40,775 bases of DNA from Puniceicoccales bacterium Verruco_02. GTDB lineage: Bacteria; Verrucomicrobiota; Verrucomicrobiia; Opitutales; Oceanipulchritudinaceae. How positions within the stretch are numbered: the first letter of the stretch is position 1; each line of letters starts with the position of its first letter. The stretch lies in NCBI GenBank assembly GCA_001604585.1, contig LVBW01000016.1, positions 1 through 40,775 on the forward strand. Reading direction: 5' to 3'. The notes below the pieces were generated by a model. It made no database searches, was not told the origin of the DNA, and worked only from the letters and a program-made list of their open reading frames with translations. Shown here in pieces: positions 4,150-40,775 of the stretch. The translations under genes were made by a program, and so were the position numbers.

Positions 4150-4548
4150 CTATTGAGCCATCATGCGGTCCGGAGAGGGGTCGGACACTCCGCCGCTCTG
4201 CTCTTTGTCGGGCTTGACAAAGCTGCCGTCCAGCGATGGGCGCTCTCCCGGCTTGCCGCTCAGGGCATCCCACATGGTGTCCGCCCCGGCGGGCAGTTCC
4301 TCCCCTCCCTGGCGCAGAACCCACAGTGGGAGGGCTGGTCTTTGCGTTCCCGAGGCCACTTTTATACCCACGCTCTCTCCCATGTTCTGCATCGCCAGCC
4401 TTCCCTTCGTCATGGCCGATCCAGCGGCAGCCCGTGACGCAGCAAAGAGGGAATCACCATGCAAAGCGGAGCCAGCGGGCAGGACGGCGATAATAACCAG
4501 AGCGAAAGGCAGCACACGCCGCCTGACCGATGCGTATGTTTGAGGCAT
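4150..4548 (-). CDS. Small exported protein of unknown function
   Basis: A 132-residue product that I do not recognise. The ATG at 4548 gives a convincing signal peptide (basic ASVRRR, then VLPFALVIIAVLPAGSA). A TTG at 4584 would add 12 residues in front and is less likely. The mature chain is Ala/Gly/Ser/Pro-rich and low in order-promoting residues, with a GGEELPAG segment and a disordered, charged C-terminus ending SDPSPDRMMAQ. There are no cysteines in the mature part and no known domain. It is followed at 50 nt by the DUF2145-like gene on the same strand, suggesting a two-gene exported unit. Length and strand context support a real gene; coding bias is not strong. Confidence 0.5.
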   Translation of the reverse strand: MPQTYASVRRRVLPFALVIIAVLPAGSALHGDSLFAASRAAAGSAMTKGRLAMQNMGESVGIKVASGTQRPALPLWVLRQGGEELPAGADTMWDALSGKPGERPSLDGSFVKPDKEQSGGVSDPSPDRMMAQ

Positions 4549-34520: not shown

Positions 34521-35522
34521 ATGGCGATCCGACTAGGCAAGTTTCAGTTACCCAACCGTCTCATCAAGGACGAGCAGTCCGCTACGGCAACCTATGCCAA
34601 GTACACTGCCGAACCCTTTGAGACAGGCTACGGACACACGATCGGCAACAGCCTCCGTCGCGTCCTGCTCAGCTCGATTGACGGCTCCGCGCTATCCTCG
34701 ATTCGCATCGAGGGCGTGCAGCACGAGTTCCAGAGCATCGACGGCGTGGTGGAAGATGTGACCGACGTAGTCCTGAACCTGAAGAAGGTTCTGGTGCGTT
34801 CCCACAAGCGCGATGCTGTGAAGCTCCTGCTCGACGTGACCAAGGAAGGCCCCGTCACAGCTGGTGACATCCGTCCGGATTCCAACGTCGAAGTGCTTAA
34901 CCCTGAACTGGTTATCTGCACAATCGACAAGGAGCGCCGCTTCCAGGCCGAGATCGAGGTTCGCACGGGCCGCGGCTACGTCCCCGGCGACGAGAACAAG
35001 ACCCCGGATCAGCCTATCGGTGTAATCGCCATCGACAGCCTTTTCAGCCCAGTCAGCCTCGTCAAGTACAGCGTGGAGAACACCCGCGTTGGCCACATGA
35101 CCGACTATGACAAGCTGGTTCTGGAAATCTGGACCGACGGACGCATAACCCCAGACGACGCCCTCAAGCAGGCGGCTAGCATCCTCAAGCATCACCTCGA
35201 CGTGTTCGACAATGTGTCGGCCGAGAGTGTGGAGTTCGACTCCGAGCAGACGGAAGTCTCCGAAGAGCAGAACAAGCTCCGCAAGCTGCTCAACATGAGC
35301 GTCAACGAAATCGAGCTTTCCGTCCGCGCGGCCAACTGCCTGAACAACGCCAACATCACAACCGTTGGCGAACTGGCAATGAAGTCCGAGCAGGAAATGC
35401 TCAAATACCGCAACTTCGGCAAGAAGTCCCTCAACGAGATCAAGAGCAAGCTCGAACAGCTTGGACTGTCCCTTGGCATGAAACTCGACGATCGTCTGCT
35501 CGACGTTCACAACGACATCTAA
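34521..35522 (+). CDS. rpoA: DNA-directed RNA polymerase alpha subunit
   Basis: The subunit dimerises to nucleate polymerase assembly, and its C-terminal domain contacts UP elements and activators. The 333-residue product has GYGHTIGNSLRRVLLSSIDG and SIRIEGVQHEFQSIDGVVED in the N-terminal domain. The C-terminal domain holds ELSVRAANCLNNANITTVGE and LKYRNFGKKSLNEIKSKLEQ. ISDL-equivalent dimer residues and the flexible linker (SEEQNKLRKLLNM) are present. The 100-nt gap to rpsD is C-rich. Normal partner of rplQ. Confidence 0.98.
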   Translation: MAIRLGKFQLPNRLIKDEQSATATYAKYTAEPFETGYGHTIGNSLRRVLLSSIDGSALSSIRIEGVQHEFQSIDGVVEDVTDVVLNLKKVLVRSHKRDAVKLLLDVTKEGPVTAGDIRPDSNVEVLNPELVICTIDKERRFQAEIEVRTGRGYVPGDENKTPDQPIGVIAIDSLFSPVSLVKYSVENTRVGHMTDYDKLVLEIWTDGRITPDDALKQAASILKHHLDVFDNVSAESVEFDSEQTEVSEEQNKLRKLLNMSVNEIELSVRAANCLNNANITTVGELAMKSEQEMLKYRNFGKKSLNEIKSKLEQLGLSLGMKLDDRLLDVHNDI

Positions 35523-35625
35523 ATGACGGGCAAGGCGCTTCGACCATAAGCAAGGATCCGCCAACCCCAAAGATACCGCAACAGTTGCGAGGGCCAAACC
35601 TTCGCAAGGCACATAGAATTTACCA

Positions 35626-36111
35626 ATGAGGCATTTAAAGCACAGATCCCAACTTGGCCGCACCAAGGAGCACCGCGCAGCTCTCATGGCCAACCTGTCC
35701 GCAGCCCTGCTCACGCACGGCCGCATCCGCACCACTCTGCCCAAGGCCAAGGCTCTGCGTCCCTTCGTGGAGCAGATAATCACTCTGGCCGTGCGCGCCA
35801 GCAAGGCCGAGGCCGCCGACGCCCTGCACCTACGCCGTCAGGCCATTGCCAAGGTTCGCGACAAGGACGCCGTGGCAATTCTCTTCAAGGAGCGCGTGTC
35901 GGAGTTCACCAGCCGTCCCGGTGGCTACACCCGCATCTACAAGATCGGCCCCCGCATCGGCGACGCCGCTGAAATGGCCCTCATCGAGCTTATCCCCGCT
36001 GCCGACACTGGCTACGCCAAGTCGCGCAAGGGCAAGACGAGCGCAGCCGAAGCCCCGGTGTCCGAAGCCGCCGAACAGGCCCAGAGCGCCGAGGGCGAGA
36101 GCAAGGAGTAG
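35626..36111 (+). CDS. rplQ: 50S ribosomal protein L17 with acidic C-terminal tail
   Basis: A large-subunit protein near the tunnel exit. The 161-residue product begins MRHLKHRSQLGRTKEHRAAL and has LTHGRIRTTLPKAKALRPFV and RPGGYTRIYKIGPRIGDAAE. About 35 residues beyond the core (KSRKGKTSAAEAPVSEAAEQ, then AQSAEGESKE) form an Ala/Glu/Ser/Gln-rich tail, similar in composition to the S11 extension. Last gene of the ribosomal cluster. Confidence 0.96.
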   Translation: MRHLKHRSQLGRTKEHRAALMANLSAALLTHGRIRTTLPKAKALRPFVEQIITLAVRASKAEAADALHLRRQAIAKVRDKDAVAILFKERVSEFTSRPGGYTRIYKIGPRIGDAAEMALIELIPAADTGYAKSRKGKTSAAEAPVSEAAEQAQSAEGESKE

Positions 36112-36221
36112 CATCCTTCATCAAACAGCCCTTTCACCAGCAAGGGGAAATGTTATTTTCAAGGCGGCGCGTCGGGATTCAAACCGGCGCGTTCGCGTTT
36201 TCTGAACATCGCATCCACTCC

Positions 36222-36455
36222 ATGCATGTAATCAGCGTCAGTTTTCTGTTCATGGTTTACATCCTTGGCGGGATGACAGCCATACTGGGACTGTGGCTGT
36301 ATTACGACAGGAGGGACCGCATACTCTGCGACCGACAGCGTTTCAGGCATGTCTATCGCTGCATCAAATGCGGCAGACTGTATGAGCGCCGTGGACAGCG
36401 AGAGGTAGCACCTTGCCCTGACTGCGATTACGCCAACGACAGGCTCCGCTTCTGA
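36222..36455 (+). CDS. Small membrane protein with C-terminal zinc ribbon
   Basis: A 77-residue product that I do not recognise by name. Residues about 4-26 form one transmembrane helix (VSFLFMVYILGGMTAILGLW). A basic linker (YYDRRDRILCDRQRFRHVYR) follows, and then CIKCGRLYERRG...CPDC at about residues 47-68, a two-knuckle CxxC zinc ribbon of the type seen in rubredoxin-like or RNA-associated small proteins. The longer frame from 36150 is less likely since the extension is unstructured. It stands alone between rplQ and guaA, 110 nt after the L17 stop. The positive-inside arrangement puts the zinc ribbon in the cytoplasm. Confidence 0.65.
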   Translation: MHVISVSFLFMVYILGGMTAILGLWLYYDRRDRILCDRQRFRHVYRCIKCGRLYERRGQREVAPCPDCDYANDRLRF

Positions 36456-36528
36456 CACTCATGAAGCGGCTTTCCTTGGCCAGAAACATAGTTCCATTAC
36501 ACCTACACCTTAGCCGTATATTACCATC

Positions 36529-38085
36529 ATGCCGCAGATAATAGCCGTTCTGGACTTTGGTTCCCAGTACACGCAGGTAATCGCCCGTCGTGTGCGCGAG
36601 TGCAACGTGTACTCCAGAATCTACCATTACGCCACTCCGGCCAGCGAACTGGAAAAGGACGGCGTCTGCGGCGTCATCCTATCCGGCGGCCCCAGCAGTG
36701 TGTATTCGCCCAAGGCACCGCTGCCGGACAAGGCAGTGTTCGACCTCGGAGTGCCCGTCCTTGGCATCTGCTTTGGCATCCAGCTCATGGGACACCTCTT
36801 GGGTGGCAAAGTGGCGCCGGGGCAGCAGCGCGAGTACGGCCTTGGTACAATCAGTCAGGACGGCATCTGCCCCCTGTTCAAGGCCCTTCCTGAATCCTTC
36901 AAGGTATGGAACTCGCACGGGGACAAACTAATCAGCCTACCCGAGGGCTTTGAGGCGCGTGCCCGCACGGAAAACTCCGAATTCGCAGCCATCGAGAACG
37001 CCTCCCGCCGCTTCTACGGCATTCAGTTCCACCCCGAAGTATTCCACACTGAGCACGGCGTGGACATCATCCGCAACTTCCTCATGGGCATCTGCGGCTG
37101 TGTGGGCGACTGGTCGATGGCCAATTACATAGAGGCGTCCGTGGCCGCTATCCGCCAGCAGGTGGGCGACAAGCACGTCATTCTCGGCCTGTCGGGCGGT
37201 GTGGACAGTTCCGTGGCAGCCGCGCTCATACACAAGGCCATTGGCAGGCAGCTAACCTGCGTATTTGTGGACAACGGCCTCTGCCGCAAGAACGAGACCG
37301 CAGCCGTGGAGAAGCTCTTCAAGGATAACTTCAACATGGACCTGCGCGTGGCCAAGGCCGAGGACACCTTCCTTAGCGCGCTGGCCGGAGTCACAGACCC
37401 GGAAAAGAAGCGCAAAATAATAGGCAAGGTCTTCATCGACGTGTTCGACGATGAGGTGAAGAAGATTGGCGACGTGGACTTCCTCGCACAGGGCACCCTG
37501 TACCCGGACGTCATCGAGTCTGTGCCCATCGAGAACAACCCCGCCTCGCTCATCAAGAGCCACCACAACGTGGGCGGTCTGCCCGAGAAGATGAAGCTGA
37601 AGCTCCTTGAGCCTCTGCGAGAACTGTTCAAGGACGAGGTCCGCCGCCTAGGCAAGGAACTTGGCCTGCCCGACAACGTAATCTGGCGTCAGCCCTTCCC
37701 CGGCCCCGGTCTGGCAGTGCGCTGCCTTGGCGAGATTCGCAAAGACTACCTCGACATTCTACGCGAGGCCGACGCAATCTTGCTGGAGGTAATGAAGGCT
37801 GCCACCGACAAGGACGGCAAGAGCTGGTATTCCAAGGTCTGGCAGAGCTTTGCAGTGTTCCTGCCCGTCAAGACGGTGGGCGTGATGGGCGACGAGCGCA
37901 CCTACGACTACGTAATAGCTCTGCGCATAGTGGAGAGCGTGGACGCAATGACGGCCGACTGGGCACGCGTGCCCTACGACATCCTCGCAAAGGCGTCCAG
38001 CCGCATAATAAACGAGGTAAAGGGCGTGAACCGTGTGGTGTTCGACATTTCCTCCAAGCCCCCGGCGACCATAGAGTGGGAGTAG
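36529..38085 (+). CDS. guaA: GMP synthase (glutamine-hydrolysing)
   Basis: It converts XMP to GMP with ATP and glutamine. The 518-residue protein has the class I amidotransferase domain first: [20 protein letters not shown] with Cys81, and [12 protein letters not shown] with the His-x-Glu. The PP-loop ATP pyrophosphatase domain follows with [20 protein letters not shown], and the dimerisation domain ends in PPATIEWE. Length matches the two-domain bacterial enzyme. A palindrome follows at 38128-38170 and could terminate transcription. Confidence 0.98.
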
Positions 38086-38127
38086 GGCGGGGGTTTGAAC
38101 GCCGCAAGTGGTAGTTATATAAAAACG

Positions 38128-38170
38128 CAAACTCGCGCAAAATTTAGGCTTGCCTAAATTTTGCAGTTTG
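38128..38170. repeat. Large AT-rich palindrome after guaA
   Basis: GCAAAATTTAGGC-tt-GCCTAAATTTTGC (38137-38164) is a perfect 13-bp stem. It is extended by CAAACT (38128-38133) and AGTTTG (38165-38170) outside a 3-nt bulge on the left arm. It lies 43 nt after the guaA stop and marks the change to AT-rich sequence. It may terminate guaA, although no T-tract follows, or be the border of an acquired segment. Confidence 0.65.
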
Positions 38171-38184
38171 GCAAATGATTCCGC

Positions 38185-38658
38185 ATGCAAACAAGCGTCG
38201 CGATTTGTCTGTGTTTGACATATGCGTGCCTTCCCCACGAGGGATCTTGTTCTTTCGTCGATGTTACGGAGTACACTGGTGTTTCACTGTGGAATACAAA
38301 TTTTGGATGCGGAGAAACGCTCGTATTTGATGTTACTGCATATGTAAAAGGAGTCATGCCTTCGGAATATATCGCAAACGGAAGTTCGTTTATGTATTTG
38401 AAGGCTAAGCTGTGGGATGTTAATCGACTACGTTATGTTGATACAGAAGGCGATATGCCTTTGCATATGTATAGCTTTGATATAAAGGACTTCAAATCTG
38501 AGTGGTGGGGATGCACACAATTTATTACGGATGTCTATTATCCTTCCCCCTGTGTGCAATATGTCATAATTGAGGCATCCAAAGTGGATGCGATGTTCGA
38601 GTATCCCGTGACTCATTCCAGTGCGTCGCCAGCTCTTAGGAGTATAAACATATATTGA
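38185..38658 (+). CDS. Cysteine-containing exported protein, unknown, AT-rich gene
   Basis: A 157-residue product with no recognised domain. A short hydrophobic N-terminus (VAICLCLTYACL) may be a signal sequence. The rest is rich in aromatics and beta-branched residues, with cysteines in SCSF, FGCG, WGCTQF and PSPCVQY that could form disulfides. Base composition is clearly lower in GC than the neighbours: two 60-base lines I counted (38341 and 38461) have 22 and 23 G+C. The next gene starts within or just after its stop codon, so the three genes here are likely co-transcribed. No close relative is suggested by sequence alone. Confidence 0.55.
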   Translation: MQTSVAICLCLTYACLPHEGSCSFVDVTEYTGVSLWNTNFGCGETLVFDVTAYVKGVMPSEYIANGSSFMYLKAKLWDVNRLRYVDTEGDMPLHMYSFDIKDFKSEWWGCTQFITDVYYPSPCVQYVIIEASKVDAMFEYPVTHSSASPALRSINIY

Positions 38659-38666
38659 GATACTGT

Positions 38667-39257
38667 ATGTGGCGAAATCTTTCGTCTGTTGCGCTGTTGG
38701 TTCTGATATGCTCATTCATATGGTTGTATCTTGCCAAGCGATCAGTGGTAGAGTTACATTTCTCAGATGAGCATGTAGGGCATACGATCTCGAAGATTGT
38801 TACAAACGGGTCTAAGCCGAACATAGATTTAACAGTTGCCAGGCAGTTGGCCTCTGCGAATTTGGCTGAACCTTCACACTGTGCTCCATCCGTCCTCTCT
38901 GCCGACGCTGTGACGGCTGAAATCCAGACCGTACGTGCGAAGCACGAAGCCTCGATGCAAGAAGGCAAGGAACTGCTCCGCCGCCGCGCGGGCATTCAGG
39001 AATGGAAGGAGTTCTGCTCAAGGAACGGACTGCATCTAATTAGAGCAAAGGTGGATGATTCAAGTGGCACTTATTACGTAGATATATCTTCGAAGGATCG
39101 GCTCCCCGACTTTGTCAATGGTCTCTTGTGCTTTGGTTTTTCACCGTATTCAGATCCTGAAGCCTACATTAGCTTTTACTTCGCCGATGACTTGATGCGT
39201 TTCGACTACAAGCCGTACATGTCTCCCAAAACGCTTGTCGGAGATATTGTAAGGTGA
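38667..39257 (+). CDS. Membrane-anchored protein of unknown function
   Basis: A 196-residue product with one N-terminal transmembrane helix (SSVALLVLICSFIWLYLAKR, residues about 5-24) and an extracytoplasmic remainder. The ATG at 38667 is preferred; a TTG at 38655 would overlap the previous stop. A helical, charged stretch (TVRAKHEASMQEGKELLRRR) sits in the middle, and the C-terminus is rich in Tyr/Phe/Asp (FGFSPYSDPEAYISFYFADD). No known domain is recognised. The first half is AT-rich and composition returns toward the chromosomal average in the second half. It is 2 nt from the next start, so strongly coupled. Confidence 0.6.
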   Translation: MWRNLSSVALLVLICSFIWLYLAKRSVVELHFSDEHVGHTISKIVTNGSKPNIDLTVARQLASANLAEPSHCAPSVLSADAVTAEIQTVRAKHEASMQEGKELLRRRAGIQEWKEFCSRNGLHLIRAKVDDSSGTYYVDISSKDRLPDFVNGLLCFGFSPYSDPEAYISFYFADDLMRFDYKPYMSPKTLVGDIVR

Positions 39258-39259
39258 AA

Positions 39260-40039
39260 ATGAAACACACAATTATACCAATACTATCCTTCTTTGCGGG
39301 CGCCTATATATCCCTACTTGTGCGCCCACTTGTCGTTGATGAGGAGCACTCCGCGCCCACTCGGGAAGCTTCGAAGGCCAGTGGCGCGATCATCGCGGAT
39401 GCACCGGCTCGAATACGCGACCTTGAGCAGCAGATCGAAGACATGCGCGAGGTGGTGCATCAGGCTAACCTCCAGTTATACTTCGACAGGGAAAAGGAAC
39501 GTTCGCGCCTCGAAGCCGAGAGCAGACGGAGGGAAAGAGAGGCAAAGGGGCAGCGTGAGTGGATAAGCAGGGACCAGTGGGCAATATTCGCCCACAACGT
39601 CGGGGTGGGCGAAGAGAACGCTGATGCGGTTCGCGCGGTCTTGGAAGGCCACTTCCGCAAAGAAAGAGAAAGGATGGTTGCCAAAGTTCGAGGAGAGAAC
39701 GACCCGTACCCAAACACTCCGCCAATAGAAGATGCGCTGGCCGAGGTGCTCACACCCGAACAGGTGGACCACTTCAGCACCTACATGAATGACCTGCGTC
39801 AGATCGAAGTGGACAAGACCGTAATCAACGGCATAGCCGCCACTCTGACCATCATTCCGCTGGACGACGATCTGCGGGTGAAAATCGAGGCCGTTTACCG
39901 CGAAGATGCAGAGGCCAGCGTGTATCAGGATGGGCTGACATTTCGCTCACCTTGGGGAATGCGCAAGCGCGTGGAAGCCCAGATGCGCCAGATACTCAGC
40001 CCCGAAGATTACAAGTTGTGGGAAAACGCCATGTTCTGA
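39260..40039 (+). CDS. Membrane-anchored coiled-coil protein of unknown function
   Basis: A 259-residue product. Residues about 3-22 form a membrane anchor (TIIPILSFFAGAYISLLVRP). Residues about 48-95 are a strongly charged coiled coil (RIRDLEQQIEDMREVVHQAN, then KERSRLEAESRRREREAKGQ). Two motifs, LTPEQVDHFSTYMNDLRQ and ILSPEDYKLWENAMF, recall the LTPEQ-type repeats of Spy/CpxP-like periplasmic proteins, a resemblance in pattern only. AAGGTG precedes the ATG at good spacing and overlaps the previous stop codon; a GTG at 39254 is a weaker start. Composition is near the chromosomal average here. Confidence 0.6.
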   Translation: MKHTIIPILSFFAGAYISLLVRPLVVDEEHSAPTREASKASGAIIADAPARIRDLEQQIEDMREVVHQANLQLYFDREKERSRLEAESRRREREAKGQREWISRDQWAIFAHNVGVGEENADAVRAVLEGHFRKERERMVAKVRGENDPYPNTPPIEDALAEVLTPEQVDHFSTYMNDLRQIEVDKTVINGIAATLTIIPLDDDLRVKIEAVYREDAEASVYQDGLTFRSPWGMRKRVEAQMRQILSPEDYKLWENAMF

Positions 40040-40177
40040 AACCGTTTGCCACGCCAAGCCGCTGACAAAGGCGCTTGCGCGCATATGCTGTTGTCATCGG
40101 GCGGATTGCTGCTCATTCTTCCCATCAGCTTTGCTCCAGTGTTCCTGCCGGGCGGGCGTCCCTCTTAACAGACAGAT

Positions 40178-40775
40178 ATGCAGCGCATCAGTTACAGCCA
40201 GCCCGATCTCCGACGCATACTTCGCGAGTTCATCAGCTCGGACGAGTCCTCGGCCAGCGTGGTCGATGGCGTCCGCTACATATTGAACGACATACGCCTG
40301 CGCGGGGACGCTGCCGTGAGCGACCACCTTGCCCGCATCGACAAGGTGCAGATAGCGCCAGCAAAGTTCCGCGTGCCGGGGCAGGTGTTGCAAGCCGCAG
40401 CCGAGGCCCTGAGCGAGGAGACAACCGCCGCCATAATAGCAGCCAAGGCCAACATCCGCGCTTTTCACGAAAAGGGCCTGCCCAAGAGCTGGAGCGGAAC
40501 GAACATGCACGGCGCAGGCGTTGGGGAACGTTTCTACCCGCTCGACCGCGTGGGCCTGTACATCCCCGGAGGCAATGCTCCGCTCGTATCGACCATACTC
40601 ATGACAGCCATTCCGGCAAAGATCGCCGGGGTGCCCTCCATCGCCGCCTTTACGCCCCCCGGCAGGGACGGCCGCGTTAATCCCGGCCTACTGGCCGCCT
40701 GCCACTTCTGTGGACTGGACGAAGTGTACTGCGTTGGCGGACCGATGGCCATTGCCGCCATGGCCTACGGCACTG
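40178..40775 (+). CDS. hisD: Histidinol dehydrogenase, 3' end outside window
   Basis: It oxidises L-histidinol to L-histidine in two NAD-dependent steps. The visible 199 codons begin MQRISYSQPDLRRILREFIS and include DIRLRGDAAVSDHLARID. They also include the family signature region RVGLYIPGGNAPLVSTILMT, then AIPAKIAGVPSIAAFTPP and LDEVYCVGGPMAIAAMAYGT before the window ends. The zinc- and substrate-binding C-terminal part is not present. The ATG at 40178 fits the family start; no strong Shine-Dalgarno site is visible. hisC is 34 kb away, so a compact his operon is not present here. Confidence 0.95.
   Translation, partial: MQRISYSQPDLRRILREFISSDESSASVVDGVRYILNDIRLRGDAAVSDHLARIDKVQIAPAKFRVPGQVLQAAAEALSEETTAAIIAAKANIRAFHEKGLPKSWSGTNMHGAGVGERFYPLDRVGLYIPGGNAPLVSTILMTAIPAKIAGVPSIAAFTPPGRDGRVNPGLLAACHFCGLDEVYCVGGPMAIAAMAYGT

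Follow-up and report, generated by a model that had tools for sequence, protein, structure and literature searches.

A lineage-specific three-gene locus between guaA and hisD encodes a predicted anchored tandem-LTxxQ protein and is preceded by a putative DtxR/IdeR-type operator

Spy, a single soluble module of ~16 kDa with four helices, forms a cradle-shaped dimer in which unfolded client proteins are held (PMC8144458). Together with CpxP it represents the LTXXQ family (PF07813) of periplasmic stress chaperones and modulators. The metal sensors CnrX and NccX are anchored, CpxP-like proteins that combine an N-terminal anchor with an LTxxQ-type module. On the regulatory side, a 14-bp consensus, TTAGGNNNNCCTAA, has been proposed for IdeR/DtxR (PMC8464063). 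Here we describe a locus in which features of these systems appear side by side. It lies in a contig of 40,775 nucleotides from Puniceicoccales bacterium Verruco_02 (LVBW01000016.1), the whole of which was analysed and is referred to below as the window.

The locus consists of three forward-strand open reading frames: g1 (38185–38658; 157 aa, with 7 Cys and 12 Tyr), g2 (38655–39257; 200 aa from a TTG) and g3 (39254–40039; 261 aa from a GTG). Read from these starts, consecutive frames share four-base start/stop overlaps (TTGA at 38655 for g1/g2 and GTGA at 39254 for g2/g3). Alternative ATG starts lie at 38667 for g2, 8 nt past the g1 stop, and at 39260 for g3, 2 nt past the g2 stop; for g3, the family alignment described below favours the ATG over the GTG. 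Upstream lies guaA (36529–38085, forward strand), a conserved neighbour of hisD, and downstream lies hisD itself (from 40178, forward strand), which is truncated by the contig end at 40775. The preliminary description of this DNA, as three co-directional genes that overlap or nearly abut between guaA and hisD, was thus confirmed, with spacings of 2–8 nt where the frames do not overlap. An Rfam search of 35500–40775 found no RNA. Further upstream, between rplQ and guaA, positions 36222–36455 encode a small protein that has one helix and a CxxC...CxxC ribbon, and a similar ORF adjoins guaA in another genome (G016).

The g3 product has a single clear N-terminal hydrophobic helix with basic residues nearby, which we take as a membrane anchor, followed by a coiled coil and two tandem LTxxQ modules. 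LTPEQ (residues 166–170) and LSPED are both present, in agreement with its earlier description as an anchored coiled-coil protein with LTPEQ-like motifs. A single-sequence scan of genome contigs with g3 returned no relative; phmmer retrieved weakly similar proteins from the same family, and a profile search matched 21 of the 273 genomes of the order, nearly always in single copy, with no match in the two same-genus genomes. The relatives share the layout of N-terminal hydrophobic anchor, coiled coil and two LTPEQ-closed modules, and in the alignment of 17 sequences (g3 and 16 relatives) the Q and L columns are invariant or nearly so. Against the PDB, a profile of these 17 sequences matched E. 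coli Spy (3oeo, E 1.8e-6; 3o39, E 2e-5; also 5wnw) and NccX (4clv, E 1.1e-4); the likeness to Spy rests on this search and not on a side comparison with a Spy sequence. The two modules of g3 also match each other (hhalign probability 97%). The profile matches to Spy and NccX and the mutually matching modules place g3 in the Spy/CpxP/CnrX (LTxxQ) superfamily, as a member with an anchor and a doubled module, so the earlier statement that no domain could be recognised does not hold for this protein. The Pfam LTXXQ model (PF07813) matched 6 of the 17 family members, below cut-off in those shown, and gave no match to g3 alone. These searches define a family of anchored tandem-LTxxQ proteins that is scattered through the order and is missed by Pfam models at their cut-offs.

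The comparison with the described systems reveals both shared and distinct features. Helical LTxxQ modules are common to Spy, CpxP and the g3 family, whereas g3 is anchored, carries a coiled coil and has two modules in tandem where Spy has one, and its gene sits beside two orphans, not within a known Cpx/Bae stress regulon. The combination of N-terminal anchor and LTxxQ-type module is likewise shared with CnrX and NccX, but g3 contains no Cys and the family alignment shows no conserved Cys or His that could serve as metal ligands. In addition, we found no anti-sigma or ECF sigma partner in the operon: the neighbours are g1, g2, guaA and hisD, and neither g1 nor g2 matches such a family.

Resemblance to the IdeR/DtxR regulons appears in the stretch between guaA and g1. 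This contains a putative promoter, TTGAAC-N17-TATAAA (38095–38123, forward strand), which agrees with the consensus at 9 of 12 positions and was missed by a standard promoter scan that demands T at position 6 of the -10 element. It is followed, 14 nt on, by a 28-bp palindrome (38137–38164) formed by a perfect 13-nt inverted repeat, GCAAAATTTAGGC-TT-GCCTAAATTTTGC, which ends 20 nt before g1. The core of the palindrome, TTAGGCTTGCCTAA (38144–38157), is an exact match to the 14-bp IdeR/DtxR consensus. The locus therefore shares with IdeR/DtxR regulons both this core and a repressor-like place past a promoter-like pair, whereas of the 19-bp IdeR/DtxR double site it has the inner half only. The palindrome is probably a DtxR/IdeR-type operator, a conclusion that we hold with some reserve. 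This predicted iron/manganese switch before g1 is new here, having been overlooked in the preliminary description.

A second similarity to IdeR/DtxR regulons is that the same genome encodes a three-domain DtxR-type repressor and that sites resembling the box occur at its TonB/Exb and Feo loci. The repressor gene (L261:17724–18377, forward strand) matches PF01325 (2.1e-9), PF02742 (1.2e-30) and FeoA (2.8e-11), and Pfam also confirmed ExbB, ExbD, TonB, FeoA and FeoB; the plug domain of the TonB receptor scored just under the cut-off. The exact box occurs three times in the whole genome, once before g1 and twice in a minus-strand cluster of exbB, exbD, tonB and a TonB-dependent receptor gene (L191:1552–7255, boxes at 4173 and 6153). 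One of these two boxes lies ~95 nt upstream of the receptor gene, counted from its favoured start; this gene follows tonB. The other precedes exbB by ~120 nt and falls within an overlapping reading frame (a signal-peptide coding stretch). The cluster diverges from an exported ORF that contains Cys and from a gene for a PepSY_TM protein. Two further intergenic sites with one mismatch were found in the 985 kb sampled, one of them between feoA and feoB (L270:295–308), where it lies within a longer imperfect palindrome. A box match between arsC-like and SBF-transporter genes was discarded as background. The three exact boxes and the feoA–feoB site ranked well above all others in the 985 kb, a ranking that is circular because the weight matrix was built from the same sites. 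The number of exact boxes was not above chance (three, against three for the control), so only their location argues for function. Of the 19 intergenic sites found with six control palindromes, none lay beside a recognisable iron gene, as against two of the three box sites (all classed by eye; Fisher P-value 0.013).

The main rivals to regulation by a DtxR-type repressor with a joint function for the three genes are a guaA terminator and unrelated acquired cargo. According to the first, the palindrome is only the transcription terminator of guaA, the three genes form an operon that is unregulated or regulated in another way, and the likeness to the IdeR/DtxR box is fortuitous. The palindrome does lie 51 nt past the guaA stop, and it can form a stable hairpin (z of -2.3 for the region); furthermore, the chance-level box count fits this explanation, as does the lack of such sites in relatives, where the longer motif with up to one mismatch had no match in five genomes (including both same-genus genomes) and no box was found near the g3 relatives. 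Against this, the stem is not followed by a U-tract and a terminator scan did not call it, the symmetric palindrome matches the published box exactly, and both remaining exact boxes of the genome belong to a TonB/Exb iron locus. We consider a terminator unlikely, if still the strongest of the competing explanations.

The second rival concerns the origin of the genes. In seven genomes (G001, G002, G008, G009, G010, G015 and G016), among them both same-genus genomes and several members of the family, guaA and hisD are adjacent without g1–g3. In both same-genus genomes hisD directly follows guaA, the gaps being 303 and 377 bases long; gaps below 100 bases were seen in G008, G009, G010, G015 and G016. 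In G003, G004 and G007 the gap (on L059, L053 and L050) holds a single gene for an exported protein of ~245 aa, with 31–47% mutual identity and unrelated to g1–g3; the idea that g1 and g2 are remnants of this gene was ruled out, as no similarity was found. The gap of G002 (L047 from 3058) contains a long inverted repeat, GGGAGTGTTTGCAAATAG ... CTATTTGCAAACACTCCC, which may be a small repeat element. With gaps that are empty or occupied by an unrelated gene, the guaA–hisD interval tolerates insertions, and the direct adjacency of the two genes in the same-genus genomes shows that, within the sampled genomes, the trio is an insertion specific to its own lineage. The preliminary description had allowed for lineage specificity, which these comparisons support, and had regarded absence of the gene order from every relative, with intact single genes elsewhere, as speaking against its reading. 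The g1–g2–g3 order is present in no relative, and relatives of g3 from the same family and order stand alone in different surroundings, with neighbours that vary by genome except among close relatives (ten relatives examined at length). This speaks in part against that reading, but g1 and g2 are not found as single genes elsewhere either.

The base composition of the locus bears on whether g1 and g2 arrived separately. As first described, g1 and the first portion of g2 are AT-rich: GC and GC3 are 0.425 and 0.41 for g1, the lowest GC of the three, 0.485 and 0.53 for g2, and 0.56 and 0.66 for g3, and most neighbouring genes have a GC3 of 0.69–0.82. Ranked by GC3 against a 600-kb sample of the same genome, g1 is among the ~3% of genes with the lowest values. 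A strong composition step thus separates g1 and g2 from g3, and it is consistent with g1 and g2 being recent cargo of the phage, integrative-element or polymorphic-toxin immunity type that landed before an existing g3 and has no joint function with it. The same explanation could account for the lack of g1 and g2 relatives in the order or phylum, where searches of relatives, 372 genomes of the order and 387 of the phylum gave nothing beyond matches of E 0.003 or weaker, and the genome bears other low-GC, RHS-associated small membrane proteins. However, the overlapping starts and stops across g1–g3 hint that their translation is coupled, the three genes have no integrase, att repeat or RHS gene beside them, no flanking repeats of a mobile-element layout were found around them, and no relative turned up in viral contigs (g1 and g2) or in phage and plasmid records (g1). 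We regard unrelated cargo as unlikely too. That the genes were acquired, as also proposed earlier, is plausible for g1 and g2 by composition only, and no donor was found. Elsewhere in the genome, L208:2–6625 holds a large, GC-poor ORF of RHS/SpvB-like type with a small membrane-anchored ORF behind it, and L227 and L230 carry RHS C-terminal pieces; by eye, these are candidate polymorphic-toxin loci.

A third explanation, that g1 and perhaps g2 are degraded or non-coding stretches that have stayed open by chance, is suggested by their weak codon-position signal (P-values 0.02 for g1 and 0.005 for g2, against 1e-11 for g3), by the lack of homologues and by a g1 fold prediction without a confident fold (pLDDT 33). 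Given this weak signal, the reality of g1 and g2 as genes rests on length and layout. The stop-free runs of all three frames exceed those of every simulated sequence of the same dinucleotide make-up (0 of 2000), the frames are consecutive with overlapping starts and stops, and the g2 product shows a clear membrane helix together with a C-terminal domain predicted with low to moderate confidence, all of which makes a non-coding origin improbable.

Searches of g1 and g2 against Pfam, NCBIfam and PHROGs, and with phmmer against PDB sequences, gave nothing usable. A match of g1 to the herpesvirus Gene66/IR5 family (PF02053; E 1.2e-4, 22.2 bits against a cut-off of 20.1) covered only profile positions 126–193 of 209 and is treated as chance, being local, taxonomically odd and otherwise unsupported; seven shuffled versions and one reversed version of g1 gave no Pfam match up to E 0.1 and did not reproduce it. 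Of the earlier description of g1 as an exported protein with several Cys, the 7 Cys stand, while export is unproven: the N-terminal hydrophobic stretch is weak (best 19-residue hydropathy 1.18), with no basic n-region and no good signal peptide. The g2 product, in contrast, has the single clear N-terminal hydrophobic helix expected of a one-helix anchored protein. Its single-sequence model (mean pLDDT 53) comprises this membrane helix, a long helix or coiled region and a C-terminal domain tentatively assigned the order alpha-beta-beta-alpha-beta-beta. Foldseek found nothing at E 0.001 with this model. It is most improbable that g2 represents a PilO/GspM/GspL-like inner-membrane component and that the operon adds to a type II secretion or type IV pilus machine: the order of elements and the PulL/PulM, EpsL, XcpY and PilO rows of the VIA-align comparison (Z 3.9–5.5) point that way, but Z values below 8 are common for unrelated folds, designed proteins rank equally high, the model is of limited confidence and no secretion gene lies nearby.

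An envelope system, as first proposed, is plausible since g2 and g3 are anchored, each by an N-terminal hydrophobic helix. Taken together, these results make us evenly balanced on the reading that g1–g3 form a lineage-specific, iron/manganese-responsive envelope operon, as predicted from sequence. In such an operon, the metal-loaded DtxR-type repressor would sit just downstream of the -10 element and block transcription, and when iron (or manganese) falls, the three genes would be transcribed together with those for iron uptake. The g3 protein, held at the inner membrane and extending into the periplasm, may serve as a Spy-like chaperone or scaffold on a tether, with which the anchored g2 and the probably periplasmic or surface-located g1 would act. 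In the simplest case, the trio might assist the folding or protection of envelope proteins that the cell makes when iron is limiting. That the two orphan families and the tethered, duplicated Spy-like chaperone amount to an iron-starvation-induced, DtxR-controlled module for envelope quality control or metal handling is a much more speculative reading; no DtxR-controlled module of this make-up is described in the literature searched.

The locus itself is real and mostly explained, comprising a newly arranged member of a known superfamily, two orphans and what is plausibly an iron/manganese switch. If the predicted regulation is right, it would connect metal homeostasis, through DtxR/IdeR, with a Spy/CpxP-family chaperone in anchored and duplicated form, and the two orphan proteins would gain a testable condition of expression.
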